Under the pieces are notes generated by a model, which saw only the letters and a list, made by a program, of their open reading frames with translations, did no database searches and had not been told where the DNA came from. Positions 52,348 to 57,209 of a stretch of DNA of 64,000 bases are shown piece after piece; the stretch's first letter is position 1; each line of letters begins with the position of its first letter. This DNA is from Anaerococcus mediterraneensis. GTDB lineage: Bacteria; Bacillota; Clostridia; Tissierellales; Peptoniphilaceae. The stretch spans positions 62,001 to 126,000 of the forward strand of contig NZ_LT635772.1 of assembly GCF_900128415.1 (NCBI RefSeq). The letters run 5' to 3'. Position numbers and translations under genes: made by a program.

Positions 52348-53385
52348 TTAATAAACCAATTTTACCTCTCTAAATTTTAGGTCATCACGATCTATCATTT
52401 GGTATGTTTTTTCATAGGTATAGTCTTTTTCCTCTAGACCTAGGCTATCAAGATACCAGCGGACATCTACTAGATTTTTGACAGTTTTGTTATAGATCCT
52501 GACTATAGTTCCCTTGCTCAAAGAACCATAAACTGGATCGGTCATATTTTTGACCTCTTTCCACCTGTCCATCCTAGCTGCCCCATAATTATAAAGTCTC
52601 ATCATCAACTGATATTGTTTGTTGTACAATCTTATCAAAGTTTGGACCTTTTTTCTGGCCAAGATATTTTTCTTTTCTTTTTTTGAAATCTTGCCAACTT
52701 TAGACTGGCCATATGGGTGCTTTTGCATACCCTTTCTATTTGATAGGTCTCTAATAGGAATCAGATACATCCCGTCTTCGTAGCTTGCATCTCCCTTTGG
52801 GCCTACTTCGTTTTTTGGATTTTCTTTCCCTCTAGGTTCAACTCCTGCATCACCCTTTGGGAATTCTTCTTTTAGATTTTTTATAGCATTTTCTATGATC
52901 TTTACAAAATCATCCTCACCAATTGATCTGATTGTAATGCTGTGATAGATATCATCCATCCTAAAATCAGCTGTAAAAACAGAATCATTTCCTCCATTAA
53001 AAGAGCCAGCCTTAGAAATCAAAACATCCTGACCTGCGATCTTGGATTTTTTGTAGGACTCAAGGGCTTTTTCATAATTTCCGCTAAAAGGACCTCTCCT
53101 ATAAACTATATCTAGACCATCCTTGCTTCTCATAGATGTCTCTGTGAAAAGATAAGGATTTGTGTATTTTTTATTAAGAAGTTCATAAGACATATCAATA
53201 TCAAGCTTTCTGCCAAAGATCCTCTCCAAAGATTCTTTTTCTTTTGCCCCATCAATCTCAGAAATCTCCCCTTCTGGGTAGGTTTCGCAGCTAACATATT
53301 CATTTACAACCACATTTTCACTAGCCTCCGCCTTTGTTCCCAAAATGGCAAGAGATAAGGCACACACCAAGATAATTTTCTTCAT
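52348..53385 (-). CDS. Secreted protein of unknown function, domain order B-A
   Basis: No family recognised. A 345-residue protein with a signal peptide (1 to about 22). Domain B (about 50-175) includes KIAGQDVLIS and SIGEDDFVKIIENAIKN. A linker containing two GDA/KGDA repeats leads to domain A (about 201-345), starting SYEDGMYLIPI and including SKVGKISKKEKK, WKEVKNMTDPVYG and YTYEKTYQMIDR. Both domains occur in the protein at 54555-55577, in the reverse order. Domain B recalls the DUF4367 pattern (G-x3-S strand, then an acidic helix after a serine), though weakly. It is divergent from the HTH-TPR regulator. Confidence 0.82.
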   Translation of the reverse strand: MKKIILVCALSLAILGTKAEASENVVVNEYVSCETYPEGEISEIDGAKEKESLERIFGRKLDIDMSYELLNKKYTNPYLFTETSMRSKDGLDIVYRRGPFSGNYEKALESYKKSKIAGQDVLISKAGSFNGGNDSVFTADFRMDDIYHSITIRSIGEDDFVKIIENAIKNLKEEFPKGDAGVEPRGKENPKNEVGPKGDASYEDGMYLIPIRDLSNRKGMQKHPYGQSKVGKISKKEKKNILARKKVQTLIRLYNKQYQLMMRLYNYGAARMDRWKEVKNMTDPVYGSLSKGTIVRIYNKTVKNLVDVRWYLDSLGLEEKDYTYEKTYQMIDRDDLKFREVKLVY

Positions 53386-53572
53386 AATATCCTCCTTTAT
53401 CTTTTTATGCTTTTTTAACTTATATAAATACAGAAATCCTTTTCAATCTTCATTTTTATATCTCATTGGATTTATCATATCCTCTTTAATATATTATAAT
53501 TTATTAAAATACTTGTGTAAAGTATTATTTGTCTATGGACTTTTCTATAATATTGTGATATGATTAAAAATT

Positions 53573-54466
53573 ATGAATACAAATAATTATAAATTCGGAA
53601 AAATTTTAAAAGAGATAAGACAAAAAAATAATTTAACACAAGAAGAACTCGCCTATCGTTCATTTATAAATATCAAAACCATATCAAATATGGAAAACGG
53701 AAAGACCGATATAGACTTGGACAAACTAGAGATCCTATCGGAAATATTAAATACTGATCTTGTAGAAGAATATCTTTACCTCTTGCTAAATGATTCTGAG
53801 CAAATTAATAATATTTTAAAAAATCTCAACTCAAAAGACAGGTATCCTGGTTCTAGTCAGACAGACGAAATCAAACTTTTAACAAAAATTGAAAATACAT
53901 CCCAAAGAAAAATCATAATACAAAAGGCACAAAAATTAAGATTATTATTTCAAAGTATAGAAATTAAAGATGATACAAATAAGAAAAAATCCTTAATAGT
54001 TGATGCTTTGAATGTTGGAAGGGACTTTGACTTTAATGACCTTGCTGCAAACACCTATGACATCATTGATTATAGACTGCTTATGAATTATGCCATATAT
54101 ATCAAAAATAAAGCAGAAAGGCTAAGTGTTTTTAAATTTATCGAAAATTCTAGGGTAGCTAGCGACAATTTAAACTCAATTTTATACCACAATATGGCTA
54201 ATACCTATTATAGCTCTAACAAATCCTACTTGGCCCTATATTACATAAATAAATCAATTAGAACAAATAATAAAAATCCTCTTTCCCCAATTATGCTTTA
54301 CCAAAAATCTATTATTTTATATGACCTTAGTTTTGATTATAAAAAATATGTAAAACTAACACTAGAAAGATCTAAAAATATGGATGAAAACTTATATCAT
54401 CTTCTTTTAGGTAAGTATGAGGCAAAAGCACGAGATGATGAGGATTTTATTATTGCATATCCATAA
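53573..54466 (+). CDS. HTH regulator with C-terminal helical repeats (Rgg/PlcR-like)
   Basis: A 297-residue protein. The N-terminal helix-turn-helix (about 8-62) reads LKEIRQKNNLTQEELAYRS and then INIKTISNMENGKTDIDL. The rest is all helical with TPR-like periodicity, for example HNMANTYYSSNKSYLALYYI. This layout is that of RRNPP regulators (Rgg, PlcR, PrgX), which sense short exported peptides, but peptide binding is not shown here. No good Shine-Dalgarno sequence lies before the ATG. It sits between the two paralogous secreted proteins and is the natural candidate to control them. Confidence 0.85.
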   Translation: MNTNNYKFGKILKEIRQKNNLTQEELAYRSFINIKTISNMENGKTDIDLDKLEILSEILNTDLVEEYLYLLLNDSEQINNILKNLNSKDRYPGSSQTDEIKLLTKIENTSQRKIIIQKAQKLRLLFQSIEIKDDTNKKKSLIVDALNVGRDFDFNDLAANTYDIIDYRLLMNYAIYIKNKAERLSVFKFIENSRVASDNLNSILYHNMANTYYSSNKSYLALYYINKSIRTNNKNPLSPIMLYQKSIILYDLSFDYKKYVKLTLERSKNMDENLYHLLLGKYEAKARDDEDFIIAYP

Positions 54467-54492
54467 AAAATATATATTCCAAAAAAAATACT

Positions 54493-54526
54493 AAAAAAGA
54501 CGAGAAACAAATCCTCGTCTTTTTTT
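54493..54526. terminator. Bidirectional terminator
   Basis: A 12-bp stem AAAAAAGACGAG/CTCGTCTTTTTT between the regulator gene (+) and the second secreted protein gene (-). Confidence 0.92.
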
Positions 54527-54554
54527 ATATTTATCCATTTAATCAGAAATCTCC

Positions 54555-55577
54555 CTAAAATTCTAATTTCATAGTAGAAGATGCTGACATATTTCTAATA
54601 TTGGCTATAAATGACCTTACAATTACCAAAAATTCATCTTCTGAAATTCCAGATGATTCTACTAGGTATTCATTATCCATATTTTTAAACTCTGCCCTAT
54701 ATAATCCGCCCTCTTTGTAGGTAGAAAGAACCATTTCTTGTCCATTGACCTTAGATATTTCTTCATTTCCTAAGGAATAATCGCTCCAGGTTTTTTCATC
54801 CTTGCCTGCCATTTGGAAGAGAATTTGTGAGTCATCCTTAGTTAAATAAATCTCTACAAAAAGTCTCTGATCATAGGCACCTGATTTCGACTTGCCCAAG
54901 ACTTCTGTTGGTTCTCCAAGCTCATATCCATCAAGATTTTCCACAAGTTTTTTTACAAGCTTTCCGCCATCTGAATCAGCAAGGTCTCTGGATTTAGCGT
55001 CTAGTTTTGCCTGAGATATCCCCTCATTGAAATTTATTTGGTCTTCTACCCCACAGGATTCTATCTTTTCAAAACTTAGCTCTGGCCTATCTATCATCTC
55101 TAGGGTCTTTTCGTATGTAAAATCATAATCATCTAGGCCCAAAGAGTTGAAATAATCCCTAACTCTATCGAGTGTTTTTGCACCTTTTTCGTAGAATTTT
55201 ATCCACTGAGCCTTGTTGAGTTTGCCAAAGACTGGATCGGTCATGTTTTTTACTTGTCTCCACTTTTCGATTCTTTGATCGCCAAACTTGTACCATCTTA
55301 TAATATTTTGATAGTATATGTTATATATTTCGACCATATCTTTGACATCCGGTCTGGATAAGACCTCTTCTTTTTCTTTTTTGCTGATTTTTCCAACTTT
55401 TGAACCGCCAAAAGGATGGACCTGTCTGCCCTTGTGTACTCCATAATTGTATAGGGCTCCTAAATACATCCCATCTTCGTAGGAATAATCTCCCTTTAGT
55501 TCCTCTTTTGCAAAGGCACTTGCATTTGGAAGCAAAAATGCTAGGGCAAGGCCTATTGCCAAAAATTTCTTTTTCAT
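54555..55577 (-). CDS. Secreted protein of unknown function, domain order A-B
   Basis: No family recognised. A 340-residue protein with signal peptide (1 to about 23). Domain A (about 32-170) follows at once: SYEDGMYLGAL, SKVGKISKKEKE, WRQVKNMTDPVFG and FTYEKTLEMIDRPE, clearly homologous to the C-terminal half of the 52348-53385 protein. Domain B (about 185-330) has KVNGQEMVLS and GISEDEFLVIVRSFIAN, matching that protein's N-terminal half. Aromatic residues and paired charges in domain A suggest a folded extracellular binding module. AAGGAG precedes the ATG. Confidence 0.82.
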   Translation of the reverse strand: MKKKFLAIGLALAFLLPNASAFAKEELKGDYSYEDGMYLGALYNYGVHKGRQVHPFGGSKVGKISKKEKEEVLSRPDVKDMVEIYNIYYQNIIRWYKFGDQRIEKWRQVKNMTDPVFGKLNKAQWIKFYEKGAKTLDRVRDYFNSLGLDDYDFTYEKTLEMIDRPELSFEKIESCGVEDQINFNEGISQAKLDAKSRDLADSDGGKLVKKLVENLDGYELGEPTEVLGKSKSGAYDQRLFVEIYLTKDDSQILFQMAGKDEKTWSDYSLGNEEISKVNGQEMVLSTYKEGGLYRAEFKNMDNEYLVESSGISEDEFLVIVRSFIANIRNMSASSTMKLEF

Positions 55578-55679
55578 ATCCGCTCCTTTCTAAAACAATA
55601 TTTTCTCTTTATATAATTATACCCCTCATTTTGCATTGCAATATATAAATACCATGATAAAGTATAAATATTTGACTTT

Positions 55680-55867
55680 GTTAGGCAAAAGGTGTTTAGT
55701 ATGCCTATAAGAATAAAACTTACAATGAAACCCAGTAGGACTCATTTGAGGCGATGAGTACGAATTACACTTCATTTTGTTTAAGGCAAGCCAAGTTGTC
55801 TGTACTTGGCACGAGTATAAAAAAAGCTGGTACCGCAAGACATTGCGCTTTTATGCTCTTTTTTTGT
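55680..55867 (+). ncRNA. T-box riboswitch, tyrosine type
   Basis: The leader before tyrS ends with the T-box sequence AAGCTGGTACCGC (55824-55835) and a terminator stem (GAG-ATAAAA / TTTTAT-CTC with inner GCAA/TTGC) followed by seven T. Stem I has the AGTA of a loop E motif at 55734-55737, an apical hairpin ACTCAT/ATGAGT, and GAATTACA where the codon TAC (55766-55768) would be the specifier. TAC fits tyrS. The leader is short for a T-box (under 200 bases). Confidence 0.9.
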
Positions 55868-55955
55868 GCCTATTTTATGTTAGAGGTCCCGTTTTTATAG
55901 GATTTCTCATAATCGCTTAAAATGATATAAATTAATAAATAAGAAAGGATAAATT

Positions 55956-57209
55956 ATGAAATTTACTTACGAAAAAGAATACGATAATATTTTTGATGAG
56001 CTTGTAGACCGTGGCTACTATGAGCAGTCTACAAACGAAGAAGAACTAAAGAAAATTTTGGCCAATGAATCTGTCAAATTCTACTGTGGTTTTGACGCTA
56101 CAGCAGATTCTCTCACAGTTGGTCACCTTATCCAGATCATGGTTATGATGCGTATGCAAAACTACGGCCACAGGCCAGTTGCTCTTCTTGGTGGTGGTAC
56201 AACCCTAATTGGAGACCCATCTGGTAGGTCTGATATGCGTCAAGTCATGACAGAAGAAAGAATCGACCACAACGCAGAGTGTTTCTACAAACAATTCCAA
56301 AGATTTCTAGACTTTTCTGATAAGGGTGGAGCTACTATGCTAAATAACAAGGACTGGCTCCTAAAGCTAAACTTTGTTGAGTTTCTAAGAGATGTTGGTA
56401 GTGAGTTTTTGGTAAATGAAATGATCAAAAAAGATGCCTACAAAAATAGGATGGCAGCTGGCGGTCTTACATTTTTTGAATTCTCCTACATGCTTTTACA
56501 ATCATACGACTTTTTAAAAATGTACAGAGAAGATGGCGTAACCCTTGAAATGGGCGGTTCTGACCAATGGTCAAACATCATCGGTGGTGTTGATCTGATC
56601 AAAAAACACGAAGACGGCCAAGCCTACGGTATGACCTTTTCCCTTTTGACTACAGCAGATGGAGTTAAAATGGGCAAATCCCAAAAGGGTGCTGTTTGGT
56701 TAGATGAAGAAAAAACAAGTCCATACGAGATGTTCCAATACATGAGAAATGTCGATGACAGGGATGTGGAGAAATTCCTCCTACAACTTACATTCTTGCC
56801 AACTAGCGAATGCAAGAACCTAGGATCTGCAACAGATGCGGCAGATATCAACAAGGCAAAAGAAACCCTAGCCTACGAAGTAGTAAAACTAGTCCACGGC
56901 AAAGAAAAGGCTGACGAAGCCCTATCAGCTGCAAGAGCACTTTTCTCAGGCAAGGGTGACGAATCAGCAATGCCTACAACACAAATTGCAAAATCTGATT
57001 TGCCAAAAGGCCTACTTGCCCTAATGACAGAAGTTGGCCTTACAAAATCAAACGGTGAAGCAAGAAGAACCATCCAACAAGGTGGTGTATCAATAAATGA
57101 TACAAAAGTCACCGACCCAAGCATAGAAGTCACCGAAGACCTATTCGAAGATGGCAGAATTATAATCAAAAAAGGCAAGAAAAACTTCCACAAGGTGGAA
57201 CTAGCCTAA
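55956..57209 (+). CDS. tyrS: Tyrosyl-tRNA synthetase
   Basis: Charges tRNA-Tyr. The 417 residues contain YCGFDATADSLTVGHLIQ (HIGH equivalent), GGGTTLIGDPSGRSDMR, QSYDFLKMYREDGVTLEMGG, SDQWSNIIGG, KMGKS (KMSKS equivalent) and a C-terminal S4 RNA-binding domain (about 350-417) with GEARRTIQQGGVSIND. Preceded by AGAAAGGA and the Tyr T-box, so expression responds to tRNA-Tyr charging. Confidence 0.97.
   Translation: MKFTYEKEYDNIFDELVDRGYYEQSTNEEELKKILANESVKFYCGFDATADSLTVGHLIQIMVMMRMQNYGHRPVALLGGGTTLIGDPSGRSDMRQVMTEERIDHNAECFYKQFQRFLDFSDKGGATMLNNKDWLLKLNFVEFLRDVGSEFLVNEMIKKDAYKNRMAAGGLTFFEFSYMLLQSYDFLKMYREDGVTLEMGGSDQWSNIIGGVDLIKKHEDGQAYGMTFSLLTTADGVKMGKSQKGAVWLDEEKTSPYEMFQYMRNVDDRDVEKFLLQLTFLPTSECKNLGSATDAADINKAKETLAYEVVKLVHGKEKADEALSAARALFSGKGDESAMPTTQIAKSDLPKGLLALMTEVGLTKSNGEARRTIQQGGVSINDTKVTDPSIEVTEDLFEDGRIIIKKGKKNFHKVELA

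Follow-up and report, generated by a model that had tools for sequence, protein, structure and literature searches.

The window analysed here, a stretch of 64,000 nucleotides of Anaerococcus mediterraneensis DNA, sits in a 2.08-Mb single-contig genome (G000; other labels with G, L and P denote the genomes, loci and proteins used in the comparison). The gene order metG-BA-REG-AB-tyrS is found in it, where BA and AB encode secreted proteins sharing two domains, A and B, and REG encodes a regulator; metG, tyrS and other genes were named from inspection of translations. In the gap between REG and BA lies a very small open reading frame (micro-ORF), which is the main subject here. It belongs to a family with the sequence M-x-Y-x-N-P-Q-R-Y-K-N-G-D, and the members are ORFs of about 13 codons, conserved in sequence and placed before exported-type genes. 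Very short genes are easily overlooked in annotation. The coordinates, strands and lengths of BA, REG and AB had been given correctly in the original prediction, an earlier reading of the same DNA in which the micro-ORF went unmentioned. The features, in window coordinates, are as follows.

52348-53385, reverse strand: BA, secreted protein of 345 residues with the order B-A; signal sequence at about residues 1-22 by eye; orthologues in G011 and G016.
52351-52797, reverse strand: domain A of BA, residues 197-345; 48% identical to its counterpart in AB (E 1e-49).
52867-53064, reverse strand: domain B core of BA, residues 108-173; profile match to domain B of AB.
53443-53478, reverse strand: micro-ORF MINPMRYKNED of the NPxRYKNGD family; same place in G011 and G016.
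53493-53521, reverse strand: putative promoter of the micro-ORF and BA, TTTACA-17-TATAAT; 11 of 12 matches, best of the 21 sites listed.
53536-53564, forward strand: putative REG promoter, TGGACT-17-TATGAT with TG before the second hexamer; stretch conserved across three genomes.
53573-54466, forward strand: REG, regulator of 297 residues with a Cro/CI helix-turn-helix (HTH) and a tetratricopeptide repeat (TPR)-like part; HTH_3 at E 1.8e-11; orthologues of 78% (G016) and 70% (G011) identity.
54493-54525, reverse strand: terminator-like hairpin between the convergent REG and AB; 14-pair stem, then a T run.
54555-55577, reverse strand: AB, secreted protein of 340 residues with the order A-B; signal sequence at about residues 1-23 by eye.
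55059-55499, reverse strand: domain A of AB, residues 27-173, from BLASTP and profile comparison.
54591-54773, reverse strand: domain B core of AB, residues 269-329, from profile comparison.

An antisense ORF of 72 residues (53345-53563) was rejected as a gene, as it overlaps the BA start and the promoter.

When the REG-BA gaps of the three genomes with BA are aligned, the conserved blocks are the BA ribosome site, the REG promoter and the micro-ORF block. The micro-ORF is leaderless, lies on the BA strand divergent from REG, and reads MINPMRYKNED in the window, MKKLNPMRYKNGDIIALH in G011 and MKRLSPMRYKNGD in G016. Differences among the three include synonymous changes of Pro, Arg and Asp codons. 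The ribosome site is good in G011 and G016 and weak in the window. The TTTACA-17-TATAAT sequence ends 14 bases upstream of the window micro-ORF, and from this position the micro-ORF would come first in the BA transcript. With 21 promoter-like sites against a shuffle mean of 18.8 the region shows no excess, and for this reason the promoter of the micro-ORF and BA is one that we infer. AB has no micro-ORF of the family upstream; G000 contains a single site of the pattern, that before BA.

The family was followed through genomes of the genus, the family Peptoniphilaceae and the class. The pattern P-M-R-Y-K-N-[GE]-D occurs in four of 130 family genomes, with one site each, namely the three BA loci and one place elsewhere in G002. 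When two mismatches were allowed, 11 of the 31 genus genomes yielded 15 sites (control 0), and the forms P-Q-R-Y-K-N-G-D and P-S-R-Y-K-N-G-D came to light; some of these 15 translate to no micro-ORF on the strand read and were not counted as such. With P-x-R-Y-K-N-G-D, 42 sites were found in 32 of the 130 family genomes, distributed over 11 of 39 genera, and the reversed-pattern control gave none; nine of these 32 genomes carry two or three copies. The same pattern gave 14 sites in nine of 391 class genomes, against three reversed-pattern matches. The 51 sites analysed include the window site and two viral contigs, and near-duplicates among them are L122/L123, L144 with one L146 site, and L139/L142/L162. 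A stricter viral pattern with a Shine-Dalgarno sequence gave no match, and BLAST of one micro-ORF against phages gave two Staphylococcus records at E 0.1, taken as chance. A full-text literature search for PQRYKNGD or RYKNGD returned no paper, most subscription papers being outside its coverage. The family is likewise absent among the matches listed for the literature on leader peptides, leaderless communication peptides (LCPs), lactococcin 972 and Anaerococcus quorum sensing. In G002 (C247:418792-419524 and 219477; L075, L087, L084), two PM-type copies, PMRYRSGD and PMRYKNGD, lie about 700 bases apart. The PMRYKNGD copy lies in a 30-codon frame with a hydrophobic stretch, and a third place holds a decayed copy of the same frame (LLNAMSYKNGN), as if it were part of a repeat.

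The genes behind the micro-ORFs were classed as exported-type by a crude home-made signal/membrane rule, applied at each site to the longest ORF that begins on the same strand within some 300 bases. An exported-type gene stands downstream at 43 of the 51 sites. In the background of these loci, which also contains spurious ORFs as well as the downstream genes, the rule picks 221 of 606 ORFs; the binomial p of 3e-12 is too small because the 51 sites include near-duplicates. Counted by protein family, 29 of 34 are exported-type (p 6e-9). Among the eight non-exported sites, one (L165) is a masked stretch, and at another (L121) the longest ORF is preceded by a shorter one of exported type. The gap to the next gene is 31-114 nt at 36 of 49 sites. 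At E 0.01 the 37 downstream proteins match 14 Pfam families with one or two matches each, among them lactococcin 972 (two proteins), metalloprotease and papain-like families, and three of the 37 match TIGR01653 (lactococcin 972). In this respect the loci resemble lactococcin 972 clusters, as does an ATP-binding cassette (ABC) cluster after a gene with domain A only in G013; unlike such clusters, neither BA nor AB matches a bacteriocin profile. At 15 of the 51 sites, the 900 bases upstream hold a small Xre HTH gene on the same strand. At L142, L161 and L162 the micro-ORF and its exported protein stand, by gene order, amid phage tail genes, and the L161 neighbour matches PhageMin_Tail (E 4e-58). 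These three look like prophage cargo (a moron), and L142 and L162 may be copies of one prophage. One further site is on the conjugative plasmid pAPRE01, where the PLSDB table annotates no feature.

Within the micro-ORFs, conservation extends beyond what was searched for. The fixed residues were demanded by the search pattern itself; the Asn before Pro was not, and it is kept in 47 of the 51 sites, while the Tyr three residues before Pro, also outside the pattern, is kept in 34. Gln follows Pro in 35. The 33 translated sites have open frames of at most 74 codons, and from the start to the final Asp there are 13 codons at 29 of the 51 sites and 14 at another 11 (40 together). The Shine-Dalgarno sequence matches at five or six of six bases in 42 of the 51. 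Synonymous codons are used at every fixed residue: both codons for Tyr, Lys, Asn and Asp, three for Pro, three for Arg and four for Gly. The usage is uneven. AGG makes up 44 of the 51 Arg codons, and its share in 356 longer ORFs from these loci is 21% (p 3e-23). AAC is found at 27 of 51 against a background of 24%. Where a stop comes immediately behind Asp, it is TGA in 16 of 20 cases, a stop used by 52 of 354 ORFs. From these preferences it follows that either the message is constrained too, or the DNA has spread recently. They hint that the message is constrained along with the peptide, as would be the case for a cis-acting leader.

The same preferences bear on another explanation, in which the peptide would have no role of its own: the micro-ORF would work only at the level of RNA or translation, through coupling, reinitiation, an RNA site or the Shine-Dalgarno-like AGAGG inside it, or would simply be recently spread DNA. 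The excess of AGG and TGA over background, the short gaps to the next gene and the strong Shine-Dalgarno sequences are consistent with it. However, the residues stay while the synonymous codons vary, although the pattern itself required those residues, and the Asn before Pro is kept outside the pattern. We consider this explanation unlikely.

The micro-ORFs lie upstream of their genes, on the same strand and at a short distance, have their own ribosome site and are conserved at the peptide level. These are hallmarks of bacterial cis-acting leader peptides (upstream ORFs), in which a short frame with its own ribosome site stands in the 5' region and a conserved peptide precedes each gene. Unlike the usual cis-acting leaders, this micro-ORF precedes secreted-protein genes of many families, and no attenuator structure was found. 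A leader in cis is favoured because one core recurs before unrelated genes, as a cis element must, because the length from start to Asp is near-fixed, because the codon preferences point to the message, and because copies are multiple in nine of 32 genomes. We put the reading of the micro-ORF as a cis-acting leader of secreted-protein operons at a little under an even chance.

Several observations weigh against that reading. Folding of the leader RNA at 40 sites gave a mean z of -0.47 and no classical attenuator, and the downstream ribosome site is not significantly masked (39 sites, p 0.07). A stop follows Asp directly at only 20 of 46 non-redundant sites, and the C-terminal extensions vary. 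The codon preferences may have been inherited with recently spread DNA. The window micro-ORF is itself divergent, with E in place of G and a Shine-Dalgarno match of two of six at normal spacing, and the evidence linking REG to the BA promoter is the gene order. Outside the family, six sites in five genomes stand against three control matches, hardly above the control; as the reversed pattern gave three matches in class genomes, this count alone is weak. In the sequences upstream of the micro-ORFs, 6- and 7-mers occur within the shuffled range, and two 8-mers occur in 11 sequences against a shuffled maximum of 8. A reading of R-Y-K as a +X+ motif for arrest of the macrolide type was rejected, as it leaves the conserved N-G-D unexplained.

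The regulator REG was compared with its relatives. The HTH of the proposed HTH-TPR-like regulator holds well, HTH_3 being matched also by all 11 family members scanned; the TPR part is weak in REG itself (TPR_1 E 0.22) and is matched in five of the 11 relatives (best 8e-6). The REG profile matches 50 PDB sequences at E 0.1, which are by name HTH proteins and designed or consensus TPR proteins; none is named as an RRNPP receptor. BA and REG have orthologues in the same three genomes, G000, G011 and G016 (REG identity 100, 70 and 78%), and REG is divergent from BA in all three, in agreement with the expectation of a regulator conserved beside BA. A strong REG relative (E 1.5e-50 or better) is present in 11 of 31 genus genomes. 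The peptide is also present in 11 of 31, and six genomes have both, compared with 3.9 expected; the other five genomes with the peptide lack a strong REG relative. Among the 45 site loci other than the three BA loci, which were scanned for REG-like genes only and of which several are cut by contig ends, a REG-profile match was found at one (L166), and it is weak.

These results bear on the possibility that the micro-ORF is a leaderless signalling peptide with REG as its receptor, a distant analogue of RopB and its LCP, so that BA would be a density-controlled secreted protein. In the RopB-LCP system, the regulator and the micro-ORF are divergent, and the micro-ORF and the target are on one transcript (PMC10518010). 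The BA locus matches this layout, in that an HTH regulator is divergent from a leaderless micro-ORF preceding a target, as for RopB and the LCP (SIP) of streptococci and other Firmicutes; known targets there include the secreted SpeB. The TPR-like part of REG, though weak in sequence, points the same way. The variable position is Met in all three REG-linked copies and in two of the 48 others, although by descent these three count as a single locus. In its 30-codon frame, one G002 copy could carry a hydrophobic leader, with a poor ribosome site (three of six). However, the same paper states that LCPs mostly have 8-10 hydrophobic residues and are distinct between species (PMC10518010), whereas the peptides of the BA locus have 11-18 residues, are hydrophilic, have a core near-invariant across genera and repeated in nine of 32 genomes, and mostly have no REG-like regulator nearby. 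No RopB-named chain is included in the 50 PDB matches of the REG profile. Codon preferences would not be expected for a peptide acting in trans, and because of them we slightly lowered our estimate of the signalling explanation, which we now regard as doubtful. The original prediction that the system is perhaps peptide-responsive has gained a concrete candidate in the micro-ORF, although the micro-ORF mostly occurs without a REG-like regulator.

A second known system, the Rgg/SHP pair, controls radical S-adenosylmethionine (radical-SAM) operons in streptococci (PMC13361665). At four of the 11 REG-relative loci other than BA, a gene of the sequence cluster that includes a radical-SAM/SPASM protein lies nearby on the divergent side, with ABC transporters. 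Pfam was used for the L046 genes only and the others were assigned by BLAST cluster; the L042 gene has only 88 codons, and one of the 11 loci is cut by the contig end. In this the REG family resembles the Rgg/SHP operons for ribosomally synthesized and post-translationally modified peptides (RiPPs), which also speaks for the signalling explanation. Unlike those operons, the BA loci show no radical-SAM gene, and no SHP-type hydrophobic precursor was found in the REG-BA gap. One Peptoniphilaceae biosynthetic cluster is counted under a predicted RRNPP system in a survey (PMC10075063). The association suggests, at most, that the REG family controls peptide-product operons. At L048 (G027), an ORF of 44 residues ending in SCGKACGGTKNTED lies 368 bases from the start of the REG relative and stands upstream of a 153-residue ORF and the gene of the radical-SAM cluster; it is a possible RiPP precursor.

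The secreted proteins BA and AB share two domains in opposite order, as had been described from the window. Domain A is identical at 77 of 159 residues by BLASTP, and in profile-profile comparison the two A domains match with a probability of 100%. Domain B gives 30 identities in 113 residues (E 7e-5, BLASTP), in reversed order. In the profile-profile comparison only 61 columns of B align, and they score 38.5; 150 column-shuffled controls average 13.5 and never exceed 24.0, and the reversed profile likewise scores 13.5. Both alignments therefore beat chance, and judged by these comparisons the homology of domain B is real but short and weak, covering about 60 residues. No Pfam or NCBIfam model reaches its curated cut-off with BA or AB of the window, and 16 AB and 15 BA rows compared with Pfam gave a best E of 0.018; the absence of a recognised family for domain A is borne out in these databases. 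PDB sequence searches with both protein profiles gave best E values of 0.053 and 0.035, which are not credible. By eye, a Sec-type signal sequence starts both proteins, and neither a lipobox nor an LPXTG motif was seen. The two had been called exported surface proteins; export holds, but the surface location is conjectural.

Relatives of AB were found in seven of 31 genus genomes and in none of 30 further family and order genomes. The domain A profile matched 10 of 130 family genomes, and seven, all Anaerococcus, after false ones were discarded. The rejected matches, in G069, G085 and G108 outside the genus (E 8e-5 to 7e-4), were judged from their translations to be a C69-like peptidase, an unrelated short protein and a cell-wall-binding repeat protein. 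Protein databases gave 79 relatives for AB, 18 for the A-only profile and at least 51 for BA, with overlapping lists; the BA search scored the 7,994 candidates sharing most words. The named sources are Anaerococcus and, once, a Peptoniphilaceae bacterium, and named records with an AB relative are Anaerococcus degeneri, Anaerococcus sp. Marseille-P3915 and A. lactolyticus. IMG/VR contained no BA relatives.

Among the relatives, three arrangements occur: A followed by B, B followed by A, and A without B. A tree was built from 38 A domains, selected by hand from the protein relatives; in it the A-B rows occupy one side of a branch with support 97/94. The B-A and A-only rows are intermixed, with four and five changes, at least four of each being forced by well-supported branches. 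The window BA falls outside the clade (100/100) of the other 12 B-A rows, on a long branch whose placement is flagged as unsure. Against seven other B-A rows its identity is 42.8-50.7% in A and 52.2-57.3% in B. A difference of the same kind is seen in two other B-A proteins (60.9 and 74.5%), and the identity values by themselves are therefore no proof of exchange in the window BA. A clear mosaic is given by P0026 and P0012, with 98.8% identity in B and 62.7% in A. According to this mosaic and the tree, A is an exchangeable module, and the swapped order is one outcome of the exchange. The alignments, tree and identities thus support the duplication and module rearrangement that had been proposed for BA and AB. 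In P0011 (339 residues, on a 1430-base contig), AB is joined in frame to another start, and a precomputed match is to PF06896, which we take to be a phage tail protein; the fusion is either an assembly chimera or a real insertion.

The adjacency of BA, REG and AB in the window had led to the view that they form one local system in which REG controls both secreted proteins. AB is present in five genomes and divergent from tyrS in all of them, whereas it adjoins REG only in G000; two ORFs lie between AB and REG in G016 and about 6 kb in G011, and G002 and G020 have AB without BA and without a strong REG relative. The terminator-like hairpin also separates REG from AB. Because of these gene orders we take REG-BA as the unit and AB as a neighbour, and control of both genes as one system is very unlikely. 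In G016 a lipoprotein-like gene follows BA, and its relative follows the A-only gene in G013. At that locus (L038; G013:C38, 2491-9731), the A-only gene stands between a C39-peptidase-like exported protein and the lipoprotein-like gene; further on are a short ORF, two ORFs with no Pfam match, an ABC ATPase and an HTH-TPR regulator that matches RNPP_C only weakly, at E 0.0018, short of the cut-off of that model.

Beside AB, the tyrS leader (55640-55900, forward strand) is conserved in five genomes, contains a GCTGGTACCGC block and has a folding z of -1.25. The block resembles a T-box antiterminator, yet Rfam reported no T-box in this leader at E 1. An Rfam scan of the whole window gave tRNA only, and one of 53300-56000 gave a single sub-threshold match.

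A model of the locus can be drawn from these comparisons. REG most likely controls the promoter between REG and BA. The BA transcript probably opens with the micro-ORF and then encodes a secreted protein of domain B and domain A, while AB would be a separate secreted paralogue, fixed beside tyrS and without a micro-ORF of the family. Translation of such a micro-ORF, which in most copies runs 13 or 14 codons from its start to the final Asp and keeps AGG as its Arg codon to an unusual degree, would set the progress of the ribosome and through it the expression of the downstream secreted-protein gene. The leader would answer some cue, and REG would add transcriptional control at BA. Domain A may be a small module, open to exchange, in secreted proteins that serve competition or interaction.

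As a whole, we lean slightly towards NPxRYKNGD being an undescribed micropeptide code, in which about 13 fixed residues stand in cis before dozens of unrelated secreted-protein genes (bacteriocin-like, protease-like and others) on chromosomes, prophages and a plasmid, in Peptoniphilaceae and perhaps a few other Clostridia. It would be a nascent-chain switch or a shared signal for the deployment of secreted proteins, with BA as one client. The reading of the micro-ORF is open to test by reporter and synthetic peptide. The domain-A proteins offer a clear case of module exchange within one genus, and a peptide of about 13 residues that crosses genera and is tied to secreted proteins would be a handle on the control of secretion and competition in anaerobic commensals.

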